A stretch of 64,000 nucleotides of DNA from Falsiroseomonas oleicola (GTDB taxonomy: Bacteria; Pseudomonadota; Alphaproteobacteria; Acetobacterales; Acetobacteraceae). The first letter of the stretch is position 1; each line of letters opens with the position of its first letter. The notes beneath the pieces were generated by a model. The model ran no database searches. It worked only from the letters and a program-made list of their open reading frames with translations, and was not told the DNA's origin. The translations under genes were made by a program, and so were the position numbers. The stretch lies in the NCBI RefSeq assembly GCF_019029495.1, contig NZ_JAERQM010000003.1, positions 367,098 to 431,097 on the forward strand, read 5' to 3'. Positions 42,378 through 63,661 of the stretch are shown piece by piece.

Positions 42378-42408
42378 CCGCCAAGACCAACACAAGGAGG
42401 AATCAAGA

Positions 42409-43395: not shown

Positions 43396-43400
43396 GCGCC

Positions 43401-44366
43401 ATGCAACGACGCACCCTTCTTCTCGCCGGGGCAGGCCTGGTCGCCTCCTCCGCCGCGCGGGCGCAGTCCTGGGCGCCCTCGCGCCCGATGCGCATGGTCG
43501 TGCCCTTCGCGCCCGGTGGCGCGGCGGACACGGTGGGCCGCCTGCTGGCGGAGCCGCTGGGCACCAGCCTCGGCCAGCCGGTGACGGTGGAAAACCGCCC
43601 CGGCGGCGGCACCACCATCGGCGCGCTGGCGGTGGCGCGGGCGGCGCCGGACGGGCTGACCCTGCTCTACGCCACGCCGAATGTGCAGATCCTGAACCCG
43701 CATCTGATGCGCAACCTCAGCTACGATCCGCAGGCGGACTTCACGCCGGTCATCGCCATCCTGCGCGCGCCGAAGCTGCTGGTGGTGCGCCCGGACTTCC
43801 CGGCGCAGGACGTGGCGGGGCTGATCGCGCTGGGCAAGCGCCAGGCCAATGGCCTGACCTATGCCAGTGCGGGCGTTGCCTCCTCCGGCCATCTGGCCTC
43901 GGCGATGTTCGGGCAGATGGCGGGGCTGGAGCTGCTGCACATCCCCTTCCGCGGCACCGCGCCCGCGACGCAGGATGTGATGGCGGGACGCGTCGATTTC
44001 ATGATGGACAATATCGCGACGCTGCTGCCGCTGGTGCGGGATGGGCAGTTGCGCGCGCTCGGCGTCAGCACCGCCGATCCGGCCGTGGCCGCGCCCGAAT
44101 TGCCGCCCATCGGCCGCACCCTGCCGGGCTTCCACGATGCCAGCTTCAACTACCTGCTGGCGCCCGCGCGCACCCCGCCGGAGATCACCGGCCGGCTGAA
44201 TGCCGCGCTGAACGAGATCCTGGAATCCGACGCCCTGACCCGCCGCTTCGCGCTGATGGGCATCGAGAAGCTGGGCGGCACGCCGCAGGCGCTGGAGGCC
44301 ATGGTGAAGGAGGAATACGACCGCTGGGGCCCGGTGATCGAGCGCGGCGGGATCCGGCTGCAATGA
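43401..44366 (+). CDS. Bug/TctC family periplasmic binding protein (5 of 7)
   Basis: The 321-residue protein (ATG 43401, MQRRTLLLAGAGL) has a signal peptide ending ARAQ and the motifs PMRMVVPFAPGGAADTVG, VENRPGGGTTIGALAV and IPFRGTAPATQDVMAG. It lies five bases after copy 4 and overlaps copy 6 by four. Sequence differences from its neighbours are spread across the ligand-contacting loops, so it probably binds a different but related compound. Confidence 0.93.
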   Translation: MQRRTLLLAGAGLVASSAARAQSWAPSRPMRMVVPFAPGGAADTVGRLLAEPLGTSLGQPVTVENRPGGGTTIGALAVARAAPDGLTLLYATPNVQILNPHLMRNLSYDPQADFTPVIAILRAPKLLVVRPDFPAQDVAGLIALGKRQANGLTYASAGVASSGHLASAMFGQMAGLELLHIPFRGTAPATQDVMAGRVDFMMDNIATLLPLVRDGQLRALGVSTADPAVAAPELPPIGRTLPGFHDASFNYLLAPARTPPEITGRLNAALNEILESDALTRRFALMGIEKLGGTPQALEAMVKEEYDRWGPVIERGGIRLQ

Positions 44367-46121: not shown

Positions 46122-47090
46122 ATGCCGATCACCAAGCGCGGGCTGCTTTCCGTGGCACTGACCGCGCCCTTCGTGGCCCAGGCGCAGGAGGCCTGGCCAC
46201 AGCGCCCCGTGGTGCTGGTGGTGCCCTTCGCGCCCGGCGGGCCGGTGGACAATGTGGCGCGGCCAGTGGCGGAGGGGCTGCGCCGGCAACTCGGCCAGAC
46301 CGTGGTGGTGGAGAACCGGGCCGGCGGCGGCGGGCTGGTCGGCACCCGCGTGGTCGCGGCGGCGCGGCCGGATGGCTATACGATGCTGATCGGCTCCCCC
46401 GGCCCGCTGGTGATCGCCCCGGCCGCCGGCGCGGCGGATGCGCCGGACCCGCTGCGGGCGCTGGCGCCGGTGGCGCTGATCGCGGACAGCCCGCAGATCC
46501 TGGCGGTGACGAGCGACCTTCCGGCGCGGAACCTCGCGGAATTCGTGGCCCTGGCCAAGGCGCGGCCGGGCGCATTGAACATGGGCTCCGCCGGCATCGG
46601 CACCACGCCGCATCTGGCGTCCGAATTGCTGGGCCAGCTCGCGGATATCCGCACGGAACATGTGCCCTATCGGGGCACCGGCGCGGCGCTGCCGGACCTG
46701 ATCGGCGGAAAGATCGAGGCGCTGTTCGGCGATATCTCCGCCCTGTTGCCCCTGGTGGAGACCGGGCGGGTGCGGGCGCTGGCGATCACCGCCGGCCAGC
46801 GCTCACCCCTGGCGCCCGCCATCCCCACCACGGCGGAGCTGGGTTTTCCGGCGCTGGTGGTGCGCAATTTCCAGGCGCTGCTGGCCCCGGCCGGCACCCC
46901 GCCCGCCGTGCTGACCCGCATGGCGGCCGCGTTGCGGGAGGCGCTGGGCGATGCCCAGGTGCGCGCCGCCCTGGACCGTATCGGCGCCTTGCCGGCGACC
47001 AGCGGCCCGGACCACCTTGCCGCCTATCTGGCGGAGGAACGCGCGACCTGGGAGCCGGTGATCCGCCGCATCGGGCTGCGGCTGGATTGA
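46122..47090 (+). CDS. Bug/TctC family periplasmic binding protein (7 of 7)
   Basis: The 322-residue protein has a short signal peptide (MPITKRGLLSVALTAPFVAQAQE) and motifs WPQRPVVLVVPFAPGGPVDNVA, VVENRAGGGGLVGTRVV and VPYRGTGAALPDLIGG. A GGAGGAAAC ribosome binding site precedes ATG 46122. It is the last gene of the catabolic run and converges on ubiE with 19 bases between. Confidence 0.93.
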   Translation: MPITKRGLLSVALTAPFVAQAQEAWPQRPVVLVVPFAPGGPVDNVARPVAEGLRRQLGQTVVVENRAGGGGLVGTRVVAAARPDGYTMLIGSPGPLVIAPAAGAADAPDPLRALAPVALIADSPQILAVTSDLPARNLAEFVALAKARPGALNMGSAGIGTTPHLASELLGQLADIRTEHVPYRGTGAALPDLIGGKIEALFGDISALLPLVETGRVRALAITAGQRSPLAPAIPTTAELGFPALVVRNFQALLAPAGTPPAVLTRMAAALREALGDAQVRAALDRIGALPATSGPDHLAAYLAEERATWEPVIRRIGLRLD

Positions 47091-49755: not shown

Positions 49756-49822
49756 CCCGGCCTTCGCCGATGGGTCACACCACCGGCCCCCGAAACTTTT
49801 GACTGGTCAGATAAAGAACGCC

Positions 49823-50101
49823 ATGGCGAACACGGCTTCCGCGCGCAAGCGCATCCGGCAGACCGAGAAGCGCACCGAGCGCAACCGCGCGCGCCGTTCC
49901 CGCGTGCGCAGCTTCCTCCGCAAGGTGGAGCAGGCGATTTCGGGTGGCGACAAGGTCGTGGCACAGGAAGCCTTCAAGGCCGCGCAGCCTGAGATGCAGC
50001 GCGCCGCCGACAAGGGCGTGTTCCACGACAACACCGTGGCCCGCAAGCTGTCCCGGCTTTCGGCGCGGATCAAGGCCCTGGGCGCCACCGCCCAGGCCTG
50101 A
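49823..50101 (+). CDS. rpsT: 30S ribosomal protein S20
   Basis: The 92-residue basic protein starts [21 protein letters not shown] and has the helical S20 pattern ending [16 protein letters not shown]. It binds 16S rRNA early in 30S assembly. The ribosome binding site is weak (AAAGAACG). It is the usual upstream neighbour of dnaA in alphaproteobacteria, with 334 bases between. Confidence 0.96.
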
Positions 50102-50435
50102 CCGCCAGTCGCGCCTGGCTGATCCAGGCGCCTGCTGAGTAACGGCACTTTCCGATTTCGCCATTGCTTTGAAGCAGCCTGCCGCAAGGTGGGCGGCTTC
50201 ATGCTGCTTTGGAGTAGTCGGTGAATGTTGCTGTGGTGACTACTTTATTCAGCATCGTCACGATTTCCGAATCCCAGAGTAATCATTTGCGCCGGCCCAG
50301 CGCCTCGCGGTAGCCTTGGCTCAGTCGCGCTCATCCCCCAGGAGCCGCGCGCCTGTCCTTCGCGGCCGGATCCTCCGCTGCAGATCGGTCAAATGCATCG
50401 CCCGCAAGGGCCCACGAGGTTGGCAGGTGCATCAT
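50102..50435 (+). promoter_or_regulatory. rpsT-dnaA intergenic region, presumed dnaA promoter
   Basis: About 334 bases with no gene. They hold a terminator-like hairpin after rpsT, a palindrome agtagtc/gactact (50213-50246), a 7-base aagcagc/gctgctt pair, and a GANTC methylation site (gaatc, 50269-50273). In Caulobacter, GANTC sites in the dnaA promoter couple it to replication. GC content is lower than in the flanking genes. I see no match to the DnaA box TTATCCACA, so I do not call an origin here. Confidence 0.55.
50111..50131 (+). terminator. Hairpin after rpsT
   Basis: An 8-base stem gcgcctgg/ccaggcgc with a five-base loop begins nine bases after the rpsT stop. No T run follows. It could terminate the message in part or protect its 3' end. 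Confidence 0.45.
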
Positions 50436-52016
50436 ATGGAGAATGCGGTCGGCCCGTCGTCTTCGTCTTCCCCCACCCAGTTGGCGGAGGTCTGGGCGCG
50501 AATCCGTGGCAGGCTGAAGGAAGAGGTCGGAGAGGTCGAATACCGGACCTGGCTGCGGCAGATGACCCTTGCCTCCGTGCAGGGGGAAGAAGTCACCGTC
50601 CTTCTGCCAACCCGCTTCCTGCGCGACTGGGTGCGTGGCCATTACGGCGACCGCCTGCGCGCGCTGTGGCAGGCGGAGTTGCAGACGATCCGCCGGCTGG
50701 AATTCCGGGTGGCGCCGGAGGGCCGCGCCACCGATTCCCGTGCACAGTCCCTGGCGGAGCCGCGCATGTCGGCGGTCATGGAGCCTGCCGCCGCTCCGGA
50801 GCCGGAGCACAGGTCGCGACCCAACCGCATCGCCCCCCGTGTGCTGGCCGCGGAGCCCGCGGAAGCGCAGGGGCTGGCGGAGCCGCTCGGCCGACCCGCG
50901 GAGGCCCGGTCTGCTGACGCCCGGTCTGCTGAGGCCCGGTCTGCTGAGCCGCGCCCCGGCGATGCGCGCGGCGACTGGACCGCACCGCTGGACCCGCGCT
51001 TCACCTTCGACAGCTTCGTCGTCGGCAAGCCGAATGAATTCGCCTATGCCTGCGCCCGCCGCGTGTCGGAACAGCCGGCCAGCCAGGGCTTCAACCCGCT
51101 GTTCCTGTATGGCGGCGTCGGCCTGGGCAAGACCCATCTGATGCATGCCTGCGCCTGGGCGATCCGCGACCATGGCACCGCCGATGGCCGGCCGCCGCTG
51201 ACCGTCGCCTATATGTCCGCCGAGAAGTTCATGTACCGCTTCATCGCGGCGCTGCGCAGCCAGAGCACGATGGAGTTCAAGGAAAGCCTGCGCAGCGTCG
51301 ATGTGCTGCTGATCGACGACCTTCAGTTCCTGATCGGCAAGGACAACACCCAGGAAGAATTCTTCCACACCTTCAATGCCCTGGTGGATGCCGGCAAGCA
51401 GATCATCGTCTCCTCCGACAAGTCGCCCTCCGACCTGTCGGGCATCGAGGATCGGCTGCGCACCCGACTGGGCTGCGGCATGGTGGCTGACCTGCATGCC
51501 ACCACCTACGAACTCCGCATCTCCATCCTGCAGGCCAAGGCGCAGAGCCAGGGCGTGCCGGTGCCGGCCAAGGTGATGGAATTCCTGGCCCACAAGATCA
51601 CCTCCAACGTGCGGGAGCTGGAGGGCGCGCTGAACCGGCTGATCGCCCATGCCAATCTGTTCGGTCGCCCGGTGACGCTGGAAAACGCGCAGGAGGTGCT
51701 GCACGACATCCTGCGCGCCCATGACCGCCGGGTGACGATCGAGGAAATCCAGAAGCGTGTGGCGGAGCATTACAACATCCGCCTGACCGACATGTCCTCC
51801 CCCCGCCGTGCACGCGCCGTGGCGCGGCCGCGGCAGGTGGCGATGTATCTGGCGAAGCAGCTCACCAGCCGGTCCCTGCCCGAGATCGGCCGCCGCTTCG
51901 GTGGCCGCGACCACACCACGGTGATGCACGCGGTCAGCCGCGTGGCGGAGCTGATGCAGGCCGACAGCGCCTTTGCCGAGGATGTCGAGCTGCTGCGCCG
52001 GATGCTGGAGACTTAA
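50436..52016 (+). CDS. dnaA: Chromosomal replication initiator protein
   Basis: This AAA+ protein opens the origin. The 526-residue form starting at 50436 (MENAVGPSSSSS) has domain I (VWARIRGRLKEEVGEVEYRTWL), a long variable linker (residues about 95-180), Walker A GGVGLGKTHLMHA near 225, Walker B DVLLIDDLQFL, and the domain IV signature GGRDHTTVMHAVSRV near the C-terminus. The linker contains a tandem 15-base repeat coding for RSADA/RSAEA units. It is longer than the typical DnaA of about 460-490 residues because of this linker. The stop lies 19 bases before a 44-base palindromic repeat. Confidence 0.97.
   Translation: MENAVGPSSSSSPTQLAEVWARIRGRLKEEVGEVEYRTWLRQMTLASVQGEEVTVLLPTRFLRDWVRGHYGDRLRALWQAELQTIRRLEFRVAPEGRATDSRAQSLAEPRMSAVMEPAAAPEPEHRSRPNRIAPRVLAAEPAEAQGLAEPLGRPAEARSADARSAEARSAEPRPGDARGDWTAPLDPRFTFDSFVVGKPNEFAYACARRVSEQPASQGFNPLFLYGGVGLGKTHLMHACAWAIRDHGTADGRPPLTVAYMSAEKFMYRFIAALRSQSTMEFKESLRSVDVLLIDDLQFLIGKDNTQEEFFHTFNALVDAGKQIIVSSDKSPSDLSGIEDRLRTRLGCGMVADLHATTYELRISILQAKAQSQGVPVPAKVMEFLAHKITSNVRELEGALNRLIAHANLFGRPVTLENAQEVLHDILRAHDRRVTIEEIQKRVAEHYNIRLTDMSSPRRARAVARPRQVAMYLAKQLTSRSLPEIGRRFGGRDHTTVMHAVSRVAELMQADSAFAEDVELLRRMLET
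50904..50948 (+). repeat. 15-base tandem repeat in the DnaA linker
   Basis: Three copies of gcccggtctgctga start at 50904, 50919 and 50934 with a 15-base period, so the frame is kept. They encode the A-R-S-A-(D/E) units of the unstructured domain II. Such repeats are prone to copy-number variation between strains. Confidence 0.85.
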
Positions 52017-52086: not shown

Positions 52087-53115
52087 CTACGCGGCCTTCG
52101 CAACCTTCGTCGGCAGCACCGCCGCCAGCAGATCCTCCAGCAATTCCGGCAGGGCCAGCGGCGTCGCATCGCCGCCGCCCCGTCCAAAATGCCCGGCCGC
52201 CTCCGCCGGCGTGCGGCCCAGGCGCTTTGCCAGGCGCAGCAGCGCCTCCGCGCATTGCGGCCGCGTCGGCAAAGCGGTGAGGGCGAGGTCCGGCGGCAGC
52301 AGGTCGTTCGCGCCGGTCAGGGCCAGCCGTTCCGCCCCCACCTGCCGCGTCGCCACGATGCCATGCGCCGGGCGCTCCGCCTTCGCCACGACGAAGCTGC
52401 GATGCGTCAGCCCGGGCGCAACCCAGGAGATGCGGCGCGCATAGAGATGGCCGAAGCGGCCCAGCGCCTCCGCCACCGCGCGTGCCATGGCGTTGTGCAT
52501 TTCGACATGGGCACGCTTCTCGTTGGGCCCCCATTTCCAGCGTGAGGCGGAAACGCGCACCGCCGTGGAATCCGCGCGCCAGGGGGAAACGGCATTGCCG
52601 CGATCCTCGAACAGGCCGGGATCGTCATAGAGCACGGCAGGCGACGTGCCGCCCGGCCAGGTCAGCATATGCTCATAGGGCACCAGGCCGAGCGGCTCGC
52701 TGATGACCGCGCGATGCACCACCACGCCGCTGGGATGGGCCAGCGGCGCCAAGCTGAACAGCGCCTCCGGCTCCTCCTCGGCGCGGAAGGCCAGCAGCAC
52801 CGGGTCGGCCGGCGCGCTGGGCACGAAGCCCGCGGCGATCAGCGCGGCGTTGATGCGGCGATGCTCGGTCGAGAGGATATAGGGCTTTGTTCGCGTGCAA
52901 GGCAGCAGCAGCAGCACATGCTCACGCGCATCCGGCAGCTTCGGCGTGTAGTCGCGGCCGACGAAATCCATCCAGGCGGCGATGCGCGGATGCTTCAGCG
53001 AATCCACATTGTCCTGCGGCGAATACAGCGCCAGTGACGGGTCCAGCGTGAAGGGCGCGCGGAATTTCGCGGCGGATTCGATCAGCCGCTGGGCGCGGTC
53101 ATCGGTGGTGACCAT
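52087..53115 (-). CDS. ArcS-signature (DUF5591-like) protein
   Basis: The 342-residue protein has the segment PCTRTKPYILSTEH at residues 72-85, an exact fit to the archaeosine synthase signature PC-x3-KPY-x2-S-x2-H. It is followed by SEPLGLVPYE near 140, which resembles the ArcS core (DUF5591) where a similar PLGLVP segment occurs. The protein has no tRNA-guanine transglycosylase or PUA domain and no signal peptide. In archaea ArcS adds lysine to the nitrile of preQ0 in tRNA. Here the gene ends a catabolic operon, three bases from a dihydroxyphthalate-decarboxylase-like gene. Function in this bacterium is unknown. Start ATG 53115 has a GGAG ribosome binding site within the upstream gene. Confidence 0.65.
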   Translation of the reverse strand: MVTTDDRAQRLIESAAKFRAPFTLDPSLALYSPQDNVDSLKHPRIAAWMDFVGRDYTPKLPDAREHVLLLLPCTRTKPYILSTEHRRINAALIAAGFVPSAPADPVLLAFRAEEEPEALFSLAPLAHPSGVVVHRAVISEPLGLVPYEHMLTWPGGTSPAVLYDDPGLFEDRGNAVSPWRADSTAVRVSASRWKWGPNEKRAHVEMHNAMARAVAEALGRFGHLYARRISWVAPGLTHRSFVVAKAERPAHGIVATRQVGAERLALTGANDLLPPDLALTALPTRPQCAEALLRLAKRLGRTPAEAAGHFGRGGGDATPLALPELLEDLLAAVLPTKVAKAA

Positions 53116-53118
53116 GGG

Positions 53119-54096
53119 TCAGGTCTCCAGCAGGGAGGCGGGGAAGAGATCCTCCGGCGTCAGGTCGCGCGTCAGCAGGCCCTCCGCGCGGATGTAGCGG
53201 ATGAGAGTGGCGAACATGTCGCGATTGGCGGCGAAGCCGGTGGACCAGAAGGCGGGGCCGAGCAGGCGCTCCGTTTCCTCCAGTTGCTGGGCCAGGAAGG
53301 GCAGGCCGACGGCGAGCGTCGCGCTGTCATGCAGCCGCAGCCGCGCCAGGCGCTGGGATTCCGTGAAGGCGTCGTACAGCGCGCGTGGCAGTCCCGGATT
53401 TTCGTCCACGAAGCGGCGCTTCACCGCGATCAGGTGCATCGGCGGGAATATTTTCGTGCGGGCGAAATAATCCAGTTCGGCCGCCATGGGGTCGGCGAAA
53501 AGGCGTCCCACCTTGTCGGGCGCGGTGAAAAAGCTGTCGGGCGCGCGGGCAGTGTAGAGGGCGTCGATCTCGCCCGCTTCCAGCATCTCCGACAGGCTGC
53601 GATCGGTGACGTGTTCGATGGCCACCCCGTCCGGGTATTGCTGCGGATGATCCTCGCCGGCGCGCGCCTCGTTCAGCCCGGCATTGACGTAGATCGGGGA
53701 TCGCCACGGCAGGTCGTAATGTTCATCGAAAATGCCACGCAGCCAGACGGCGGCGGCCATGTCCCAGACCATGGTGCCGATGCGCCGGCCCACGAGATCG
53801 GCCGGCTTCGTCAGCCCCTTCGCCTTGTTCACGAAGACGCAGGAGAAGCGGAAATGGCGCGAGGGAAACACGGGAATGCCGACATAATCCTGTTGCGGCC
53901 TGTCAAAGTGCCGCAGCCAGGTGGCGATGGGGAATTCGCAGCAATCGAAGCGGTGATGCGTCATCTGCAGATTGAACAGCGGCTGCAGCGGCATGACGGT
54001 GGTCTCCGCCGCCACGCCGGCGATCGGCACGCGGCCTTCCGCCAAGGCGCGGGCGCGATCGCAGTCGGAGACACCGATGGTGAGGCGCAAGGTCAT
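53119..54096 (-). CDS. 4,5-dihydroxyphthalate decarboxylase-like / NMT1-type protein
   Basis: The 325-residue protein begins LRLTIGVSDCDRARALAEGRV and contains IPVFPSRHFRFSCVFVNKAKG and ADLVGRRIGTMVWDMAAAVWLRGI. These are typical of the family containing 4,5-dihydroxyphthalate decarboxylase, whose fold is a periplasmic-binding-protein fold. There is no signal peptide, which favours a cytoplasmic enzyme over a binding protein. ATG 54096 overlaps the amidase stop by four bases. A decarboxylase role is possible, but many family members have no assigned reaction. Confidence 0.75.
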   Translation of the reverse strand: MTLRLTIGVSDCDRARALAEGRVPIAGVAAETTVMPLQPLFNLQMTHHRFDCCEFPIATWLRHFDRPQQDYVGIPVFPSRHFRFSCVFVNKAKGLTKPADLVGRRIGTMVWDMAAAVWLRGIFDEHYDLPWRSPIYVNAGLNEARAGEDHPQQYPDGVAIEHVTDRSLSEMLEAGEIDALYTARAPDSFFTAPDKVGRLFADPMAAELDYFARTKIFPPMHLIAVKRRFVDENPGLPRALYDAFTESQRLARLRLHDSATLAVGLPFLAQQLEETERLLGPAFWSTGFAANRDMFATLIRYIRAEGLLTRDLTPEDLFPASLLET

Positions 54097-55262
54097 GCGA
54101 GGCGAGCTCCGAGCGTTTCGGCGGCGGCCAGCAGCGCCGCATCCTGATAGGGGGCGCCGACCAGCGACAGGCCGATGGGAATGCCATCGAGCGTGCCGGC
54201 GGGGATGTTCACCTGCGGCAGGCGGCACAGGCTGGCGACGCAGGTCAGTGCGAGTGTCCTGTCGCGGAAGGCGACCTGCGCGGAAACCGGCGCATCGCGC
54301 AACGGCGGCAGGTCATGCGCCGTGGGGATCACCAGGATGCCATCCCTGCCCAGCAGCGCATGCAGCCGCGCGGTCAGCCTTTCGCGTTCGCGCCAGGCCA
54401 AGGCGATGGCATCCGGCGTGACGGTGGCGGCGAGCTCGATGCGATCCGCCACGGCGGGGCTGAGCTTGCGGCCGGGCTCGCGCGCCCAGGTGCCGTGCGT
54501 GGTCCAGAGCTCGCCCAATTGCAGCGGTCGGAAGGTGTCGAGCCAATGCGCGGCGCCTTCCGCATATAGCGTGATGCCTTGGGCCGGCCCGAGGTTTTGG
54601 GCCGCATCGCGCAGGGCTGCGCCGAGCGTGGGCAGCGGAATTTCGAAGGCGTCCTCGGCGATCAGCAGGCGCGGCGTGATGTCGGGCGCGGGGCCGAAGA
54701 AGACCTCGCCGATGCGGCGCAGCAGCGCGGCATCACGGGCGAACCAGCCCACCGTGTCGATGCTCGGCGCCATCGGCATCACGCCGGCGACGGAAACGCG
54801 ACCATGCGTGGTGCGGATGCCGTAGAGGCCGCAGAAGGAGGACGGCACGCGGACGGAGCCGCCGGTATCCGTGCCGAAGGCGAAGTCGCAGAGTCCGGCG
54901 GCGACCGCGGCGGCGGAGCCGGAGGAAGAACCGCCCGGCACGCGGTCCGGCGCGCGCGGATTGATTGGCGCGCCGTAATGCGGGTTCTCACCGAACAGCC
55001 CACTGGCGATCTCATCCGTATGCGTCTTGCCGATCAGCGTCGCGCCGGCATCGAGCACCGGCAGCAAGGCGGAGGCGGTGGTGAGCGAGACGGGCGCATC
55101 CCGCAGCCGGTCCGGATTGCCCCAGCCGCTGCGCGTGCCCGCCACATCGAACAGGTCTTTCACCGCGAAGGTCAGGCCGGCGAGCGGGCCGGTGGCGGCG
55201 CCTTCGATGCGGATGTCGCCATGCGCCACGAAGGCGCTGGCGCGGATCTCTTCCAGATTCAT
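54093..55262 (-). CDS. Amidase signature family protein
   Basis: The 389-residue enzyme has the Ser-cisSer-Lys triad regions: TFAVKDLFDVAGT (Lys near 34), PGGSSSGSAAAVAAG and GTDTGGSVRVPSSFCG. It should hydrolyse an amide to a carboxylate and ammonia or an amine. Length is shorter than the family average of about 450, but the triad is intact. It overlaps both hpaB-like and decarboxylase-like genes by four bases, which indicates translational coupling. The substrate is unknown. Confidence 0.92.
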   Translation of the reverse strand: MNLEEIRASAFVAHGDIRIEGAATGPLAGLTFAVKDLFDVAGTRSGWGNPDRLRDAPVSLTTASALLPVLDAGATLIGKTHTDEIASGLFGENPHYGAPINPRAPDRVPGGSSSGSAAAVAAGLCDFAFGTDTGGSVRVPSSFCGLYGIRTTHGRVSVAGVMPMAPSIDTVGWFARDAALLRRIGEVFFGPAPDITPRLLIAEDAFEIPLPTLGAALRDAAQNLGPAQGITLYAEGAAHWLDTFRPLQLGELWTTHGTWAREPGRKLSPAVADRIELAATVTPDAIALAWRERERLTARLHALLGRDGILVIPTAHDLPPLRDAPVSAQVAFRDRTLALTCVASLCRLPQVNIPAGTLDGIPIGLSLVGAPYQDAALLAAAETLGARLA

Positions 55263-56719
55263 TCGGCGGCATCCCTGTGTGCGGGTCGATCGAGGCCGTA
55301 GCTGCCCATGAAGCCCTCGACAAAGGCCTTCTCCCGCGCCCAGTCGTGGAAGCGGTAGCTGTTGCCGCGCGTGACGAAGGGCGCACCGGAATAGAACATC
55401 TCGTATTGCAGATGGCGCGATCCGAATTCGGAACCGATGGCATCCCAGACCAGCTTCATCAGTTTTACGCGCCCTTCGCTATCCGTGACGGGCGAGCGTT
55501 GCGCGGCGTGGATGAGGCCCTCGATCTCGCCACCGTCGAAATCGGCGGCGGAGGACGGCACCATGATGACGCCACCGCCAGCAAGGCCGCGGATGGCTTC
55601 GATGAATTCGGGGTAGGTGGTCTGGGCGATGACCTGGGCGGTGACCAGCATCGGGCGGTTGGGCACGAAGTAGCCGTGGAATTCTTCGCCCGCCGCTTCC
55701 ATGGCGACGACCAGCGCCTCGATATTACTCGACTTCGCCGCCAACAAGCCGAGCGTTTCGCGCGTCTGCGGAAACCCCAGAATGCCGTTCACCTCGGCCA
55801 CCTTGTGCGCGAGGCCCAGAAGAAAACGCAGCTTCACCATCAGCCGCACGATGCACTGGTAGTTCTGCATCACATGCGCCCGCGTCTCATGCCACTGCGC
55901 CTGGGCCATGCGCAGGTCCTTATGGACGAAGACGCGGTCCCAGGGGATTTTCACATCGTCGAAGAACACAACGGCATCGTTCTCATCGAAGCGTGATGAG
56001 AGCGGGTAGTCGAAGGTGGAGGTGGCGGCGGCTTCGTAGCTGCGGCGGGAATGCAGCTTCACGCCTCTGGTCGCCATCGGCGTGACGGCGGTGAACGCAA
56101 AAGCCTCATCGCCGGCGCCGAGGGCGGCGAAGCCGGAAACCATCAGGTCATTCGCCATGATACCGCTGGTCGCCAGCATCTTGGCGCCGCGGATGGTGAT
56201 GCCGTGGCTGTCCTCATCCACCACGCTGGCGACCAGCCCACCACCTGGCTGGTCCTTCGCGGACTTCGATTTGTCCGCCTGCGGATTGACGATGACGTAG
56301 GACAGGAAGCGGTCGGCATCGCGCGCCTGCCGGAAGTAGTCGGCCAGCGCTGCGGCGCGTGCAGGTTCGTAGGCGTGCAGGCCCATCATGAAACCCGCAA
56401 AAGTGGAGGCGACATGGTCCGGTGAGCGGCCGATCATGCCGCAGCTCTGTTCCGCCCAGCGTTCCATGGCGCGGCGGCGCGTGACCAGCTCGGCATGGTT
56501 GCGCGGCAACGACCAGGCGAGGTTGGCCTGCGCCCCCGTCTCCGTCGTGAATGTCATGTCGGCGGGGTGCCGCGCCTGGTAGTCGTACAGCGCGGCGGCG
56601 GAGGCGACGGCGCCGGCGAAGGCGGGATCGGTGGTGACATCCTGCACGCGCCGGCCATCGATGAAGATGGTGCGGTCATCCCGCAGGCTGCGCAGATGGG
56701 CGGCGCCATCCTTGACCAT
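55259..56719 (-). CDS. HpaB-like flavin-dependent monooxygenase (4-hydroxyphenylacetate 3-hydroxylase family)
   Basis: The 486-residue protein has the HpaB N-terminal pattern (YLRSLRDDR-like HLRSLRDDRTIFIDGRRV), FMMGLHAYEP, SGIMANDLMVSGF, the flavin-site FDENDAVVFFDDVKIPWDRVFVH and the C-terminal GGGVIMVPSS region. These oxygenases use free FADH2 from a separate reductase (HpaC), and no hpaC is in the window. ATG 56719 is chosen; the open frame upstream overlaps the next gene. It probably hydroxylates or oxidatively opens a ring of the pathway's substrate. Confidence 0.88.
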   Translation of the reverse strand: MVKDGAAHLRSLRDDRTIFIDGRRVQDVTTDPAFAGAVASAAALYDYQARHPADMTFTTETGAQANLAWSLPRNHAELVTRRRAMERWAEQSCGMIGRSPDHVASTFAGFMMGLHAYEPARAAALADYFRQARDADRFLSYVIVNPQADKSKSAKDQPGGGLVASVVDEDSHGITIRGAKMLATSGIMANDLMVSGFAALGAGDEAFAFTAVTPMATRGVKLHSRRSYEAAATSTFDYPLSSRFDENDAVVFFDDVKIPWDRVFVHKDLRMAQAQWHETRAHVMQNYQCIVRLMVKLRFLLGLAHKVAEVNGILGFPQTRETLGLLAAKSSNIEALVVAMEAAGEEFHGYFVPNRPMLVTAQVIAQTTYPEFIEAIRGLAGGGVIMVPSSAADFDGGEIEGLIHAAQRSPVTDSEGRVKLMKLVWDAIGSEFGSRHLQYEMFYSGAPFVTRGNSYRFHDWAREKAFVEGFMGSYGLDRPAHRDAAE

Positions 56720-56720
56720 G

Positions 56721-58172
56721 TCAGACTCCCATTCGATCCGAGGCGAGGGTGAGGTCCACAAGCTCCGCCTCGTCATAGGCGAGCAGCGAGTCGTAATCCG
56801 CGTCCGCCTGTTCGCGGAACAGGTCCCGGGCAATGCCGCGCGCGATGCGTTCCACCGTCGGGCGCAGCGTCGAGATGCCGGCGGAGGAGGCGGTGGAGGG
56901 CATGGCGGCGAAGGAGGAGGACCGCAGCCGCGCCAACCAGGGCGCGGCACCGGGGCTGCGTTCCGTGAAAGCAAAACTGTCGGTGAGGTAGGGGTAGGCG
57001 CCGAGCAGTCTGTCTTCCACGGCCGGCGCAAAGCGGTCGCGCCACAGCGCGATGTCACTGGCAACCGCCGAAAATTCGGGACGCAGCGAAAGGTCCACCA
57101 CCAGCCCGGTGCCGACGATCAGGAAGTCGGCCTCCAGCGTCGCCCGCGGCGTCTCCAAGCGGATCGCCTCGCCCGCCATGCCCAGCCCCGTCAGCGGCGC
57201 GCCCAGATGCAGGAAGAAGCGGTCATGCGCGGCGCATCTCGAAAACGTCTCCTGCGGCGGCGGCTGGTTGAGCGCGAACAGCGTCCGCATGAACCGCCAC
57301 TTCTGGGAATCCGGCAGATCGACGAAATGGTGCAGGAATCCGAAGAACTCCATCCAGCGATTGGGGTTTACGGAAGGCAGCACCGGCCGCCGCGCCAGAA
57401 GATCGACGCGCGCCGCCCCGGCTTCCAGCGCTGTCGCGGCATTGTCGAAGGCGGAGGCGCCGGCGCCCAGAACGGCGACGCGCTTGCCTGCCAGTGCGGC
57501 AAAATCCACCGCCTGCGCGGTATGGGCGTAGTGGGTGGTGGGCAGCGCCTGCGCGATCATCGCCGGCACCTGCCAGCCGCCATTGCCGTCCAGCCCCGTG
57601 GCCAGCACCACCTGCCGTGCCAGCAGGCGCCGCGCCGTGCCATCCGCATGCACGGCCTGCACGGCCAGCAGCGTGTCCCCTTCGGGCGCGATGCCGGTCA
57701 CGCGCCAGCCATGCCGCACCGGCAGGACCAGCACGCGTTGCAGCCAGGTGAGATAGGCGTGCCAGTCCTCCCGCCCGATCTTGTGCAGCGCGTCCCAGGC
57801 GGCCTGCCCATGCCGCGCCTCATACCAGGCGCGCACGGAAAGCGAGGGCAGGCCGAGCTCCGGCCCCGTGACGTGCTTCGGCGTGCGCAGCGTGTGCATG
57901 CGGGCGAAGCGGGTCCAGACGCCCGCCTTGCCCTCCCGCTCGGCCTCCAGCACCGCGATGTTCTCGATGCGCGCGCGCTTCAGGGCGAAGGCCGTGGCCA
58001 AGCCGCATTGCCCGCCACCGACCACCAGCACGTCCAGCACCGGCCCTTCCGGATGCGCCACCGGCCGCACCCAGGGCCGCGCAGGATAGGCCAGCGTTGC
58101 CAGTTCCCAGGCCACGCGCGATTCCAGTCGCGTGAACGCGTCGTCCAGATACGGAGGTGTGAGGCTGTCCAT
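56721..58172 (-). CDS. Flavin-containing monooxygenase-like FAD/NAD(P) oxidoreductase
   Basis: The 483-residue form starting at 58172 (MDSLTPPYLDDAFTRLES) has two dinucleotide-binding motifs, VLVVGGGQCGLATAFALKRA and RVAVLGAGASAFDNAATAL, as in flavin monooxygenases and related enzymes. An aromatic-rich segment YEARHGQAAWDALHKIGREDW lies between them. The frame continues to 58259, so a longer form is possible. It starts 132 bases after the preceding binding-protein stop, the largest gap in the cluster, so a second promoter may exist here. Substrate unknown. Confidence 0.85.
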   Translation of the reverse strand: MDSLTPPYLDDAFTRLESRVAWELATLAYPARPWVRPVAHPEGPVLDVLVVGGGQCGLATAFALKRARIENIAVLEAEREGKAGVWTRFARMHTLRTPKHVTGPELGLPSLSVRAWYEARHGQAAWDALHKIGREDWHAYLTWLQRVLVLPVRHGWRVTGIAPEGDTLLAVQAVHADGTARRLLARQVVLATGLDGNGGWQVPAMIAQALPTTHYAHTAQAVDFAALAGKRVAVLGAGASAFDNAATALEAGAARVDLLARRPVLPSVNPNRWMEFFGFLHHFVDLPDSQKWRFMRTLFALNQPPPQETFSRCAAHDRFFLHLGAPLTGLGMAGEAIRLETPRATLEADFLIVGTGLVVDLSLRPEFSAVASDIALWRDRFAPAVEDRLLGAYPYLTDSFAFTERSPGAAPWLARLRSSSFAAMPSTASSAGISTLRPTVERIARGIARDLFREQADADYDSLLAYDEAELVDLTLASDRMGV

Positions 58173-58304: not shown

Positions 58305-59090
58305 TCAGCCGGCGGGCGCGAACCATTTCGCATCGAGCGCGGCGAGAAAGCCATCGCCCTGCATGGCGGCGAGATGCCGGTTGATCTCCGCCATCAGGGA
58401 GGCGTCTTCCTTGCGCGTGTTGATGCCCACATCCCGTGCATCCCAGACCGGGGAGACACCAAGCCGCACGCGGCTGTTGCGGGCGATGTTCCAGCGCAGC
58501 ACGGGCTGGGTGTTCACCACGCATTCCACGCGGCCGATCACCAGATCCTGCAGGGCCAGCGGGAACTCGTTATAGACGCGAATCTCCTTCACGGCCGTGC
58601 CGTGATTGTCGCGCACATAGCGCTCGCCGGAGGTGCCGACCTGAACGCCGACGATGCGCCCGGCCAGATCCTCCGGCCGGTCGATCACCAGGTTGGGGCG
58701 GTAGCCCGCGGCGATGCCGGTCTTGTAGTAGGGGGTGGAGAAGGCGATGCGGTCGGCGCGGTCCTGAGTCCAGGTCATCGCGGTGATGAGGGTATCGACG
58801 CGGCCGGAGGTCAGCGCCGCGATCAACCCGGCGAAGGAAATCACCTGCCACTGGATGCGCAGCCCCATGCGCTTGCCGAGTTCCTCGCCGAGATCGACGT
58901 CAAAGCCCGTCAGCGTGCCGGCCTGCATGAATTCGAATGGCGGAAAGGCGCCGCCATTGCCGACATTCAACACGCCCGCGGCGCGCACCCGCGCCAGCGT
59001 GTCGCCAGTCTGTGCCGTGGCGAGGGAGGGTGCGGCGAGGCTCGCGGCCAGCACCGCGCGGCGGGTGACGATCATGCTTGTGTCCTTCAT
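58305..59090 (-). CDS. Amino-acid-type ABC transporter binding protein (SBP family 3)
   Basis: The 261-residue protein has a signal peptide ([19 protein letters not shown], cleavage near ATAQ) and family 3 motifs: [46 protein letters not shown] and [13 protein letters not shown]. Such proteins bind amino acids, opines or other polar nitrogen compounds. Its ATG overlaps the ATPase stop by four bases. The ATPase and permease are in the same operon, so the importer is complete. Confidence 0.92.
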
Positions 59091-59869
59091 GCGGAGATTG
59101 AATCGGGCCGCAGGACGCGGCCCAGGAAGGCGCGGGTGCGCGGCTCGCGCGGGTTGCCGAGCACCTCGGCCGGCGAGCCCTGTTCCACCACCAGCCCGCC
59201 ATCCATGAAGACGACGCGGTCGGCGACATCGCGGGCAAAGCCCATCTCGTGGGTGACGACCAGCATGGTCATCCCCTCCTCCGCCAGCTTGCGCATCACG
59301 GCCAGCACCTCGCCGACCAGTTCGGGATCGAGGGCGGAGGTCACCTCGTCGAACAGCATCACCGCGGGCTGCATGGCCAGTGCCCGGGCGATGGCGACGC
59401 GCTGCTGCTGGCCGCCGGACAGGTCTGCCGGATAGGCCAGCATCTTGTGCCCCAGGCCAACGCGATCCAGCAGCGCGCGGGCCGTCGCCTCCGCCTCGGC
59501 GCGCGGGCGCCGCAACACCTGGACCGGCGCTTCCATGACGTTGCCGAGGGCGGTCATGTGCGGGAACAGGTTGAAGGCCTGGAAGACGATGCCGATGCGC
59601 CGCCGCGCCAGGGTCATCGCGCGTTCCGGCACGCGCAGCCGCGCGCCACCGCGTTCGGGACCCCAGCCGATATGCTGGCCATCGACGATCACCTCGCCGG
59701 ATTCGAACGGCTCCAGCCCGTTCAGGCAGGCGAGCAGCGTGGACTTGCCGCTGCCGGAGGGGCCGATGACGCAGACCACCTCGCCCGGCGCGACATCAAG
59801 GTCCACGCCGCGCAGCACGGGCGTGGCGCCGTAGGATTTGTGCAGGTTGCGGATGCGGATGGTGCTCAT
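59087..59869 (-). CDS. Amino-acid-type ABC transporter ATP-binding protein (GlnQ type)
   Basis: The 260-residue ATPase of the polar amino acid class has Walker [11 protein letters not shown]-loop [10 protein letters not shown], signature [15 protein letters not shown], Walker [13 protein letters not shown] and H-loop VVTHEMGF. A small insertion ([12 protein letters not shown]) lies before the Q-loop. Start 59869 overlaps the amidohydrolase stop by four bases, and the upstream frame to 60112 is shadow. Confidence 0.94.
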
Positions 59870-61122
59870 CGCAGATGCGCCAGGGCGGGCGGCATCAGCG
59901 CACCGTCGCGCATCAGGAAGGCGCCATCGGCCAGCACATGCTTCAGGTCCCGCGGCCGGGCGGCCATCAGCAGGCGGGGCACGATTTCCTCCGGCTTCGC
60001 ATCGGTGAAGGCGGCGGCGCGCAGGTCGAAGGCCAGAAGGTCCGCGCGGGCGCCCGTCGCCAAGCTCGCGCCATCGGTGGCGATGGTCATGATCTGCGCG
60101 GGCGTCGGCCATTCCGCATCGGGCCGGCCAGCACGCGGCAGCAGCAGCGCGAATTTCGCGGCCTCCAGCATGTCCTGCGTGTCGTTGCTGCCGGGGCCAT
60201 CGGAACCGATGCCGAGCCGCACGCCGCGTGCGATGGCGCGCGCCACCGGCGCGATGCCGCTGCCGAGACGCAGATTGGCCAGCGGGTTGTGCGCCATCCG
60301 GGTGCCGGCGGCTGCCAACAGGTCAAGCTCCGCATCCGTCAGATGCACGCAATGGGCATAGTCCACATGCGGCCCAGCGAGACCGAGCCGTTCCAGATGC
60401 GTCACCGGGTCCGTGCCGAAACGCGCGCGGCAATCGGCGGCGTCCTTTGTCGTCTCGCACAGATGCAGATGCACGAAGGCGCCATGCTCGCGCGCCAGCG
60501 CGCCGATCCCCGACAGAAGCGCATCCGTGCAGCGCTGCGGGGCGGAGGGGCCGAGGCCGATCTCGGCGCCCTTCGGCGGCGCCTTCACCAGCGCAGCCGC
60601 CACGGCCAGCGCCGCCTCCGTGCTCGGCGGCGTGAAGCTGGCGGAGGGGGAGGGCAGGTCGCGCAGCATCATCGCGACGCGGGCGCGGATGCCGCCCTCG
60701 GCCCAGGCGGCGGCGGCGATGGCAACCGACTCCACATTCGGCGGGATCTGCCGGAAATGGTCCGTCACGCGCACGGCGCCGCCGCGAATCGCCTCGGCCG
60801 CCGAGATCAGGATGGCCTGGCGGATGCGCGCCTCCGGCAGGGCGTCCTGGCCATCGGCATATTCGGCGGCGAGCCATTCATCCAGCCGCGCCATGGGCGC
60901 ACGGCCGCGCGCCAGGCTTTCGGGTGAATGGGTATGGGCATTGACGAAGGCGGGCAGCAGCAACAGGTGGCCGGCCTCGACAATCTCCGCATCAGTGACA
61001 TCCAGCGAGGCGCCGGTATCGGCGACACAGCCATCGCGCAGCAGCACGTCCACGCCGAAGCGCGGTGCCCAGTCCCCGCCACCTGCCAGCAACGTGGCGC
61101 CGCGGAACAGCAACGGCCTCAT
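59866..61122 (-). CDS. TRZ/ATZ-type amidohydrolase or deaminase
   Basis: The 418-residue metal-dependent hydrolase has the family motifs [19 protein letters not shown] (two His), [21 protein letters not shown] and [15 protein letters not shown] (Asp). This subgroup includes atrazine/triazine hydrolases, guanine and S-adenosylhomocysteine deaminases, acting on nitrogen heterocycles. It sits inside the ABC operon, between permease and ATPase genes, overlapping both, so its substrate is very likely the imported compound. The exact reaction is not determined. Confidence 0.87.
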
Positions 61123-61772
61123 GCGACCCTCCAGCGGGATTCCAGCCGTGCCACCAGCCAGACCAGCGGCAGCGTCATCGCCAGATACATCAGCGCCACG
61201 CCCGCGAAGGGGCTGAAGGTATTGGCCTGCCAGGTCATGATATCGGTCCCCGCGCGCAAAAGGTCGGGGATGGCGATGACGGAGACCAGGGCTGTGTTCT
61301 TCAGCAGCGTGATCGCCTCATTGCCGATCGGCGGCAGCACGCGGCGCAGTGCCTGCGGCAACACGATGCGTCGCATCGCCAGCCCCCAGCCCATGCCGAG
61401 CGATCGCGCCGCGCGCATCTGCCCGCGATCGATGGATTGGATGCCGGCGCGGATGATCTCGGTGACATAGGCGCCATTGGTCAGCGAAAGCGCCAGGATG
61501 GCCACCGCCTTCGCCTCCAGCAGCAGGCCCAGCGAGGGCAGGCCGTAATAGAGGAACAGCATCGTCACCAGCAGCGGCACGCCGCGCAGCAGCGTCACAT
61601 AGAACAGCGCCACGCCATTCAGCGCCGCAAGGCCCGAAACCCGCGCCAGCCCACCCACCAAGCCGATGAGCAGCCCGATGATGATGGAGACGATGGCGAG
61701 CTGCGCCGTGGTGACGGCGCCGGCGGCCAGCGTCGGCAGGGATTCGACAAAGAGGTCCCATTCGAAATCCAT
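61119..61772 (-). CDS. Amino-acid-type ABC transporter permease (HisM/GlnP type)
   Basis: The 217-residue permease has about five membrane segments and the EAA-like loop AARSLGMGWGLAMRRIVLPQALR. N-terminal residues FVESLPTLAAGAVTTAQLA match the HEQRO-type start of this family. One permease gene is seen; it may work as a homodimer. It overlaps the amidohydrolase by four bases and starts three bases after the deacetylase stop. Confidence 0.93.
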   Translation of the reverse strand: MDFEWDLFVESLPTLAAGAVTTAQLAIVSIIIGLLIGLVGGLARVSGLAALNGVALFYVTLLRGVPLLVTMLFLYYGLPSLGLLLEAKAVAILALSLTNGAYVTEIIRAGIQSIDRGQMRAARSLGMGWGLAMRRIVLPQALRRVLPPIGNEAITLLKNTALVSVIAIPDLLRAGTDIMTWQANTFSPFAGVALMYLAMTLPLVWLVARLESRWRVA

Positions 61773-61775
61773 GGG

Positions 61776-62642
61776 CTACAGAACCTTGCGGGCATGCGCC
61801 GCGATCTCACCGGGCCGGCATAGCCATATGCGCGGCCGGGCGGCGGCGATATGGGCCAGCACGCGGCGCAGATGCAGCAGGCGGAAGGGGTGGCCGACGA
61901 GGAAGGGATGCAGCGACAGGTTGAACACCAGCGGCCACTTTTGCGAAAGGCGAAGCTGTTCCTCGAACTGGTCGATCAGGATGTCGGCCCAGACGGAGGG
62001 CGGCCACTTCGCCGCATGCAGGGCCGGAATGTCGTTGGTCGGGCGGGAATAGGGCACGGTAACCAGCGTACCGGCGCGCGTTGTCAGCAGCGTCGGTTGG
62101 TCATCATGCGTCCAGTCCATGCTGTAGTCGAAGCCGGCCTCCGCCAGCAGGTCCGGCGTCACATGCGTCTGCGCCACCCAGGGGCCCATCCAGCCGCGCG
62201 GCGCGCTGCCTTCCTCCGTCGCGATGCGGTCGCGGCATTGCGCGATCATTTCGCGCTCCTCCGCTTCGTTCATCTCGGACTGACGTTCGGCATTGGTGCG
62301 CCCATGGCCCACGATTTCGTCGCCACGCGCGCGAAAGGCGGCGGCGACCTCCGGGCACAGATCGTAGATCGCGGTGTTCAGCAGCGCCGCCGCCGGAATC
62401 GCAAGCTCGTCCAGCGCGTCGAGCAGGTTCCAGACACCGACGCGGTTGCCCCAATCCCGAAAACCGTAGTTCTGGACATCCGGCTCCGGTGATGGATTCA
62501 CCAGCGGAATCCCCATGCCTTCCGCGAAGGGGAAGGCCTCCAGGTTCACCGCGACATGCACGGCCAGCCGCGCCCCGCCTGGCCAGTCCCAGGCCGGGCG
62601 GTTCGTGATGGCGGAATAGGCGTAGCGGCCGTGCTGGCGCAT
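61776..62642 (-). CDS. Polysaccharide deacetylase-fold protein, allantoinase (PuuE)-like
   Basis: The 288-residue protein has the NodB-like barrel pattern: RLAVHVAVNLEAFPF at the start, NYGFRDWGNRVGVWNLLDAL, GHGRTNAERQSEM and a later MDWTHDDQPTLL. The sequence resembles the cofactor-independent allantoinase PuuE group and peptidoglycan deacetylase relatives more than sugar deacetylases. A C-terminal FNLSLHPFLVGHPFR may add ligands. No signal peptide is seen, which supports a ureide role. It overlaps the NMT1-type gene by one base. Confidence 0.78.
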   Translation of the reverse strand: MRQHGRYAYSAITNRPAWDWPGGARLAVHVAVNLEAFPFAEGMGIPLVNPSPEPDVQNYGFRDWGNRVGVWNLLDALDELAIPAAALLNTAIYDLCPEVAAAFRARGDEIVGHGRTNAERQSEMNEAEEREMIAQCRDRIATEEGSAPRGWMGPWVAQTHVTPDLLAEAGFDYSMDWTHDDQPTLLTTRAGTLVTVPYSRPTNDIPALHAAKWPPSVWADILIDQFEEQLRLSQKWPLVFNLSLHPFLVGHPFRLLHLRRVLAHIAAARPRIWLCRPGEIAAHARKVL

Positions 62643-63661
62643 CAGGCACCCATCGGCGGCAACATGCGGTCGGCTGCCGGCGGCAGGAACTGAGTCAGCA
62701 TGAAGCTTTCGGCGGAAGGTGGGGTGGCGACGCCAAAGGCCTCGGCCATCGCCGTCACCATGGCAGCGGCGCGGGCGGGATCGACATGGCCCACGCCCTT
62801 CTCCCGCGCTGTCGGCGTCAGCACGGCTTCGCGCATGATGAAGCGCATGCGCTCCGTCTCCAGCGGCACATCGGCCAGAGGCTCCCGCGCCCGCACCGCG
62901 GCGATGGCGGCGGTGGGGTCGGTCAGCGCCTCCTTCAGCCCGGCGAGGGTGGCGCGCACGAAGCCGCGCACCATCTCCGGCTCTTTCGTCGCCAATTCTG
63001 CCGGCAGCAGCAGCGCATTGCCGAACACGTCCACGCCGTAGTCGTTGAAGCGGAACATGCGGATGTCCTGCTCCCTCTGCCCCAGGGCGCGTAGGTTGAA
63101 GAAGGCGCCGGAGACGAAGGCGGTGATGGCATCGGCCTCGCCCCGGTGCAGCATCGGCTCCCGCAACGGCGGCGCCACGGTGATCCAGGTGACATCGTCG
63201 GGCGCCAACCCGTTTGCCTTGGCGAAGACCGGGAACAGCACGCGACCGCTATCGCCCGCCGGCGCCGCGATGCGCTTGCCGCGCAGATCGGCCGGCGTCT
63301 CGATGCCCCGCCCCGCCACGGTGATGACGCTGGCCAGGGTGCGATCGAAATACTGGAACACATTGACCACGGTGCGGGCGGGGTGGTCGGCATTGTGCTT
63401 CACCACGGCGCCGGGATCGCCAAAGCCGATCTCCGCCGCGCCGGCCGCCAGCTTGGTGACGACATCGCCCGATCCGAAGCCGCGCTGAATGGTGACGTTC
63501 AGCCCCTCCCGCGCGAAATGGCCGCGCTCGGCGGCGAGGAACCAGGCGGCGTGGTAGCCCTGCGGCGTCCAGTCCAGCATCAGCCGCAGCGCGCGCGGCT
63601 GGGCCAGTGCGGGTGTTGCGAGCAGCGCGCCTGTGGCGGCCAGGAAGCTACGGCGTTGCAT
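62642..63661 (-). CDS. NMT1/THI5-like ABC transporter binding protein
   Basis: The 339-residue protein has a signal peptide (MQRRSFLAATGALLATPALAQ) and the family features LRLMLDWTPQGYHAAWFLAAERGHFAREGLNV and GSGDVVTKLAAGAAEIGFGDPG. NMT1-like proteins bind pyrimidines, aliphatic sulfonates or related compounds. No matching permease/ATPase pair is adjacent, other than the amino-acid-type system in the operon. It starts 11 bases after the ureidoglycolate lyase-like gene. Confidence 0.88.
   Translation of the reverse strand: MQRRSFLAATGALLATPALAQPRALRLMLDWTPQGYHAAWFLAAERGHFAREGLNVTIQRGFGSGDVVTKLAAGAAEIGFGDPGAVVKHNADHPARTVVNVFQYFDRTLASVITVAGRGIETPADLRGKRIAAPAGDSGRVLFPVFAKANGLAPDDVTWITVAPPLREPMLHRGEADAITAFVSGAFFNLRALGQREQDIRMFRFNDYGVDVFGNALLLPAELATKEPEMVRGFVRATLAGLKEALTDPTAAIAAVRAREPLADVPLETERMRFIMREAVLTPTAREKGVGHVDPARAAAMVTAMAEAFGVATPPSAESFMLTQFLPPAADRMLPPMGA

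Follow-up and report, generated by a model that had tools for sequence, protein, structure and literature searches.

What does the core of an archaeal transfer RNA (tRNA)-modifying enzyme do at the end of a bacterial catabolic operon? The question is raised by a gene in a 64,000-nucleotide stretch of Falsiroseomonas oleicola contig NZ_JAERQM010000003.1 (positions 367,098 to 431,097), which as a whole is referred to here as the window. The open reading frame (ORF) runs on the minus strand from an ATG at 53115 to 52087 and encodes a 342-residue protein related to the archaeosine enzyme ArcS. Our answer, which we hold at a little short of an even chance, is that a free-standing ArcS-core enzyme has been recruited to the catabolism of a purine-type nitrogen heterocycle, most likely a 7-deazaguanine, either preQ0 itself or a base from which preQ0 arises. 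A purine-type catabolic role as such is likely; the specific assignment to a 7-deazaguanine is more tentative.

A stand-alone ArcS core in a bacterial protein

The pattern PC-x3-KPY-x2-S-x2-H is a hallmark of ArcS, of which TGT-like (transglycosylase) and PUA domains are also parts. The original prediction, read from the letters of the window, was that the protein carries the full signature together with an ArcS-like PLGLVP segment and lacks the two additional domains. All of this was borne out: PCTRTKPYILSTEH forms residues 72-85 and lies exactly at 52902-52861, PLGLVP forms residues 141-146, and DUF5591 is the only Pfam family found at an E-value (E) up to 1, with no TGT-like or PUA domain detected. 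The profile search that had been suggested returned a significant match to DUF5591 (PF17884; E 1e-7; 32.3 bits, the gathering score being 26), and the NCBIfam ArcS models NF040592 and NF053620 matched at E 2.2e-8 and 2.7e-6. In 14 named control genomes, DUF5591 was detected in three, all of them archaea. A chance motif was rejected on the profile evidence (DUF5591 over its cut-off, and matched by 48/48 aligned family members at E up to 0.1) together with the Foldseek fold matches.

The relationship to ArcS that had been claimed stands for the core, where homology is shown by profile and by fold (Foldseek E 0.014 and 0.0032), and does not extend to the equivalog models, whose cut-offs are missed at 33.2 of 440 and 26.1 of 600 bits. 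The protein is a distant relative of the archaeal archaeosine enzyme; being over 400 bits under the ArcS cut-offs, and with no further domain found, it is not ArcS proper. It shares with ArcS the DUF5591 core, in which the signature is followed by the PLG-VP segment, and differs from it in being bacterial and encoded in catabolic operons. The window family has the further motifs YDDPGLF, W-x-WG-x2-E and LTHRSF, whose conservation was judged within the bacterial family.

The comparison with archaeal ArcS rests on these profiles and on AF0587, an archaeal protein of unknown function. When an AlphaFold2 model of the window protein (mean pLDDT 92.9, pTM 0.91) was compared with known structures by Foldseek, DUF5591-type proteins headed both lists, each with E above 0.001. 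The best match in the PDB was AF0587 (2q07; probability 0.98, E 0.014, TM-score 0.29/0.35), and the rest of the best 50 of 137 matches had a probability of 0.20 or less. Among viral models (BFVD), a DUF5591 protein encoded by Vibrio phage nt-1 ranked first (probability 1.00, E 0.0032, TM-score 0.38/0.55), and the next of the viral matches listed had a probability of 0.35. Searching the PDB with the family sequence profile gave AF0587 as the sole match (E 0.0022); the single window sequence reached it at E 0.5 only. AF0587 carries PCTxxKPYxxSxxH, although its identity to the window protein is 13% and its TM-score is low. The nt-1 ArcS homolog (R9TEI9) is likewise a free-standing core, no longer than the core itself, with a C-x3-RPY-x2-S pattern that we liken to the window signature, but at 226 residues it is shorter.

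In the model, the signature is placed between a strand (65-72) and a helix (83-94), while two further strands, 131-139 and 227-231, lead into the SEP-VPY motif and LTHRSF, respectively. From this secondary structure, the three loops are predicted to meet at one edge of the sheet, where they would form the active site. We take this arrangement to resemble uracil-DNA-glycosylase-like folds, with which the ArcS core fold is grouped.

A sparse family with an invariant signature

Members of the family were collected by scanning GTDB contigs with a 10-member alignment, which gave 48 loci; the scan was keyed on two peptide patterns of the family, and more distant members are missed. The ArcS-like gene of one locus, L060, is frameshifted, and this locus was left out of the second alignment (the window plus the other 47 loci, n=48) and of every count out of 48 given here. 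L069 and L079 were found later and stand outside the 48, and L078 is the same genome as L046. Aligned members are 40-90% identical to the window protein. All seven signature residues (P72, C73, K77, P78, Y79, S82 and H85) are invariant in the 48, as are S139 E140 P141, V145 P146 Y147, YDDPGLF (163-169), R180, W193, W195, G196, E199, H207 N208, P234 and LTHRSF (236-241). The invariance of the signature suggests that ArcS chemistry has been kept.

The gene was found in 9/395 genomes of the order (2/84 genera, by protein search), in 2/150 genomes drawn from the taxonomic family and in 3/385 drawn from the class (by search with the alignment), the window's own genome being included each time. A Pfam DUF5591 scan of 398 genomes of the phylum gave one carrier, the window's own copy; this draw differs from those of the order and class, hence it says little about sensitivity. 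Nor is the locus set independent of the family and order draws, since L021, L022, L027, L028, L031-L034 and L037 lie on contigs equal in length to those of nine genomes from these draws. The family is sparse and, within the scan made, bacterial. Labels of 38/48 records are Alphaproteobacteria or a genus of that class, including Falsiroseomonas, Roseomonas, Rhodovarius, Kaistia, Parvibaculum, Bradyrhizobium, Mesorhizobium, Ciceribacter, Martelella, Pseudooceanicola, Maritimibacter and Actibacterium; the remaining records are metagenome-assembled genomes (MAGs) labelled Actinomycetota, Acidimicrobiia, Solirubrobacteraceae, Ilumatobacter, Chloroflexi or just bacterium. The carriers include named isolates, for example Kaistia soli DSM 19436, Falsiroseomonas stagni DSM 19981 and Martelella alba. 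Among 72,556 plasmid records, the gene and its cluster occur in one, pRACO34Ac of Rhizobium sp. ACO-34A. No relative came up when viral contigs were scanned with the 10-member alignment or the nt-1 ArcS core, and in a phage collection the only matches were at E 3 or worse and covered 14% of the query.

In L052, a MAG labelled Ilumatobacter (Actinomycetota), the ArcS-like gene is 56% identical to that of the window and the shared neighbours do not adjoin it. This may reflect transfer or a mis-binned contig.

Recurrent linkage to purine and ureide catabolism

To count neighbours, representative neighbouring proteins were searched by tblastn (E 1e-12) within ~10 kb of the ArcS-like gene where the contig allowed. 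A guanine/8-oxoguanine-deaminase-type amidohydrolase of any kind lies in 37/48 loci, and in 17/25 once the ArcS-like proteins had been dereplicated at 75% identity; in L061 a deaminase on the same contig lies beyond the 10-kb limit and was excluded. As background, eight carrier genomes (~41 Mb) hold 52 such amidohydrolase matches, 2-9 per genome with the operon copies included, so that ~0.03 would be expected by chance per 21-kb stretch; however, related loci do not count as independent, and the background figure came from a single query, that for the neighbourhoods from several. The other recurrent neighbours are a 4,5-dihydroxyphthalate-decarboxylase relative (34/48), a flavoprotein monooxygenase (33/48), an HpaB-type monooxygenase and an amidase (32/48 each), a PuuE-like protein (24/48), an aldehyde dehydrogenase (17/48), a class III aminotransferase (14/48), an NMT1-type binding protein (12/48) and an HDAC-like deacetylase (11/48). 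Recurrence beside amidase and HpaB genes, which the original prediction had proposed to look for, is seen for each of the two in two thirds of the loci. A deaminase-, PuuE-, hydantoinase- or RutB/biuret-hydrolase-like gene is present in 40/48. Linkage to purine and ureide catabolic genes is recurrent, and a purine-type pathway is supported by this context.

The strongest context is that of L079, where the ArcS-like gene lies within the urate/allantoin pathway itself. On one side are a xanthine permease (427.9 of 414 bits), urate oxidase (Pfam Urate_ox_N, 449 bits), hydroxyisourate hydrolase, a PuuE allantoinase fused to an OHCU decarboxylase domain (PuuE-UraD), allantoicase and ureidoglycolate lyase. 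On the other are a xanthine-dehydrogenase-type molybdenum enzyme, an AtzD-type ring-opening amidohydrolase (547.6 of 360 bits), a RutB/biuret-hydrolase-like protein and an allantoinase/dihydroorotase-like protein. A xanthine-dehydrogenase-type molybdenum hydroxylase also adjoins the gene in L048. In L046, a PF00383 protein of the cytidine-deaminase fold lies 208 bp upstream on the same strand and is weakly related to guanine deaminases (PDB 1wkq and 1tiy, E about 1e-5); here, a deaminase of a different fold may do the job that the amidohydrolase does elsewhere.

The nearest known relatives of the amidohydrolases belong to the 8-oxoguanine deaminase, guanine deaminase and N2,N2-dimethylguanine hydrolase family. 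One deaminase at the Kaistia soli locus scores above the cut-off for 8-oxoguanine deaminase (615.7 against 532 bits), and relatives of it at 60% identity or more occur in 15/48 loci. According to PMC13054789, members of this family differ in the purine that they accept. The Kaistia genome holds three close paralogs, 68-100% identical (L036:17082-18422; G817:C9:515380-518208), two of which stand in tandem away from the ArcS-like operon.

Within the order, the decarboxylase relative is closely coupled to the ArcS-like gene. Its ortholog (75-100% identity) is found in exactly the 9/395 genomes that carry the ArcS-like gene and is adjacent to it in 9/9, its match ending within ~10 bp, and the next of the matches listed is 39% identical; more distant paralogs are common (117/395 genomes at E 1e-20). 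The Kaistia relative has a sole PDB match at E up to 0.01, the 4,5-dihydroxyphthalate decarboxylase 9jp7 (E 8.6e-58). In the order, the ArcS-like protein and the decarboxylase relative are a tight functional pair; beyond it, the pairing is partial, as the 34/48 loci indicate.

Two sets of neighbours were distinguished, a single gene being enough to score a set as present. The first (monooxygenase, HpaB, amidase and decarboxylase relative) occurs in 34/48 loci, and the second (hydantoinase-type, RutB/biuret-hydrolase-type, DUF1989, AA_synth, class II aldolase and another amidohydrolase) in 10/48, two of these with one gene only. They are mutually exclusive, with both sets in 0/48 loci. L055 has all six genes of the second set, yet a quick FastTree analysis places its ArcS-like protein with those of Alphaproteobacteria. 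The usual elements common to both sets are the ArcS-like gene and the base deaminase, which suggests that their products act on a part of the substrate common to both routes.

A possible route and the readings that compete with it

Many bacteria and archaea make 7-deazaguanines for tRNA, and some phages make them for DNA; preQ0 is a natural purine-like nitrile, and it is at this nitrile that ArcS acts. The original prediction had guessed at a nitrile, amidine or deazapurine-like substrate, and such a compound would fit the purine-type neighbourhoods. Thermococcus ArcS transfers lysine to preQ0 in RNA, according to PMC11298593. PMC6884629 describes 7-deazaguanines in phage DNA, ties phage ArcS homologs to these bases, with an amidohydrolase reaction proposed for some, and reports that nt-1 encodes preQ0-synthesis genes and has 7-deazaguanines in its DNA.

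From these elements we infer a substrate, a reaction, catalytic residues and an order of steps. The substrate would be taken up through an ATP-binding cassette (ABC) system, and C73 with the KPY/S/H and SEP/VPY motifs of the ArcS-like enzyme would attack the C7 nitrile to give an amide or amidine. The amidase would convert this product to the 7-carboxylate, which the dihydroxyphthalate-decarboxylase relative would strip. The guanine-deaminase-type amidohydrolase would strip the 2-amino group, the flavin monooxygenases would open the pyrrole ring, and allantoinase- or hydantoinase-like enzymes would finish the ureide ring. If ArcS chemistry has been kept, this scheme would employ nearly all of the first-set genes. 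An amine arm is suggested by the genes for the HDAC-like deacetylase, the aminotransferase and the aldehyde dehydrogenase; a lysine-adduct role is mere conjecture.

A number of results weigh against this proposal. The significant DUF5591 alignment covers profile positions 4-44 of 150, ~45 residues; neither structure library yields a Foldseek E of 0.001 or better, the TM-scores are low (0.29/0.35 for AF0587, 0.38/0.55 for nt-1), and when profiles were compared, the nt-1 protein aligned over 43 columns around the signature with a probability of only 16.5. Neither gene set occurs in 4/48 loci, and the 10/48 second-set loci are without the amidase or decarboxylase that a nitrile-to-acid scheme requires. 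By tblastn, no deaminase-, PuuE-, hydantoinase- or RutB-like gene was detected in 8/48 loci (L031, L034, L037, L041, L046, L048, L052 and L067), four of which (L031, L037, L048 and L067) are either short or close to the end of a contig. In the window clade, the genes for the amidohydrolase and the PuuE-like protein are only ~30% identical to those of Kaistia. Among the neighbours scanned, which were part of the total, none was recognised as a queuosine or preQ0 gene or as otherwise specific to deazaguanines. Pterins or unusual purines fit the neighbours about as well.

The closest competitor, which we regard as possible and yet more doubtful than not, keeps the purine or pteridine catabolism and drops the nitrile: the ArcS core would catalyse another C-N reaction, such as ring opening or amidine/guanidine hydrolysis, on an ordinary or substituted purine, a pterin or a cyclic ureide. 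The neighbours are indeed general purine and ureide enzymes, including the urate pathway of L079 and the 8-oxoguanine deaminase, and the second-set loci do without the first-set amidase or decarboxylase. The seven invariant signature residues argue the other way, and we know of no missing step in ordinary urate catabolism that an ArcS-like enzyme would fill.

It is unlikely that the core acts as a nucleoside hydrolase or other base-releasing enzyme, cleaving the glycosidic bond of an imported purine-like nucleoside. Such an activity would fit ahead of a base deaminase, genes that we take from their sequences to encode a BMP-type ABC transporter occur in 5/48 loci, and the acidic residues E84, E140, D164, D165 and E199 are invariant in the 48 members. 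Nevertheless, no glycosylase appears among the best 50 of the 137 PDB fold matches, ArcS has to our knowledge not been described as a glycosylase, and the NMT1-type binding proteins (12/48) suggest that bases or other heterocycles are taken up no less often than nucleosides.

Less probable still is that the operons degrade an aromatic or phenolic compound, with the purine-type neighbours handling released nitrogen or being bystanders. No enzymes of the first set are easier to recognise than HpaB and the decarboxylase relative, and a Rieske ring hydroxylase adjoins the gene in L037; the deaminase and ureide enzymes, however, persist where HpaB and the decarboxylase were not found (the second set, L046 and L079).

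Modification of tRNA or DNA, as in archaea and phages, is very improbable in spite of the homology to ArcS and to the nt-1 protein and of the link between phage ArcS homologs and dG+ made in PMC6884629, because the single TGT match of the genome lies with a single QueC match, ~2 kb apart, on another contig (C1) away from the operon, PUA and transglycosylase domains were not found by Pfam, and the gene is sparse and mostly sits within catabolic operons. No extra base-inserting partner was seen beyond that TGT match, in searches that were not aimed at DpdA itself.

The free-standing ArcS core is a known domain in a new, probably catabolic role. In the boldest form of the proposal, which we consider rather doubtful, the operons would be the first known pathway to degrade 7-deazaguanines (the preQ0, preQ1, queuine and archaeosine bases) as nutrients, with the ArcS core, taken over from tRNA modification, providing the key nitrile/amidine step in what are, judging by record labels, at least three bacterial phyla. 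In a literature search whose scope left most subscription journals outside, we found no paper naming DUF5591; among the papers listed, none described, by title and start of abstract, a pathway for deazaguanine or queuine breakdown or this gene combination. The ArcS-like operons may be part of an undescribed pathway that consumes 7-deazaguanine-type bases; even with some other purine-like substrate, a metabolic role outside nucleic-acid modification would follow for the ArcS core. A stand-alone, well-conserved bacterial core in named isolates makes the question testable.

The operon in the window and its surroundings

As had been predicted, the gene ends a catabolic operon: it is the last of at least 11 consecutive minus-strand genes (63661 to 52087; Table 1), and a further minus-strand ORF (63673-63999) extends to the end of the window. 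Most neighbours overlap or sit within a few bases of each other. The widest gap, before the flavoprotein gene, is 132 bp or less depending on the start chosen, and the last five genes are the tightest, separated by a gap of 1 bp, two overlaps of 4 bp and a gap of 3 bp. A Bradyrhizobium relative of the HpaB-type protein matches solved HpaB structures.

Table 1. Genes of the minus-strand operon and the ArcS signature (positions in the window)
Feature	Position	Strand	Evidence
SsuA/NMT1-type ABC substrate-binding protein	62642..63661	-	profile match
PuuE-allantoinase-like protein	61776..62642	-	99.3 bits, under cut-off 424.6
Polar-amino-acid-type ABC permease	61119..61772	-	profile match
Guanine/8-oxoguanine-deaminase-type amidohydrolase	59866..61122	-	best 192.7 bits; no equivalog cut-off passed
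ABC transporter ATPase	59087..59869	-	Walker A and ABC signature read from translation
Polar-amino-acid-type ABC substrate-binding protein	58305..59090	-	profile match
Flavoprotein monooxygenase-like protein	56721..58172 (ORF opens 58259)	-	best Pfam Pyr_redox_3, 62.4 bits; Lys/Orn N-monooxygenase domain PF13434, 49.5 bits
HpaB-type flavin-dependent monooxygenase	55259..56719	-	280.6 bits, under equivalog cut-off 480.2
Amidase	54093..55262	-	PRK08310, 461.2 bits against cut-off 391; 4-bp overlap with each neighbour
4,5-Dihydroxyphthalate-decarboxylase-type protein, 325 aa	53119..54096	-	3 bp upstream of ArcS-like gene; no NCBIfam match; Kaistia relative matches PDB 9jp7
Stand-alone ArcS-core (DUF5591) protein, 342 aa	52087..53115	-	Pfam PF17884, E 1e-7; AlphaFold2 model top hits AF0587 and nt-1 DUF5591
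Signature PC-x3-KPY-x2-S-x2-H, residues 72-85	52861..52902	-	seven fixed residues invariant in 48 aligned members

The operon is convergent with an ORF at 50316-52016, which from its translation we take to be dnaA, and a short basic ORF at 49799-50101 presumably encodes ribosomal protein S20. The dnaA/S20-like region also adjoins the ArcS-like gene in five other Falsiroseomonas/Roseomonas-type loci (L021 and L023-L026), and in L022 and L027-L034 the gene is not beside it. Further along the window, clustered ORFs at 42247-43395, 43392-44366 and 46122-47090 presumably encode Bug-type (tripartite tricarboxylate) binding proteins, judging by their translations. In six loci of Actinomycetota type or labelled bacterium (L063-L066, L068 and L081), an amine-oxidase-like flavoprotein, an O-methyltransferase or both lie beside the ArcS-like cluster.
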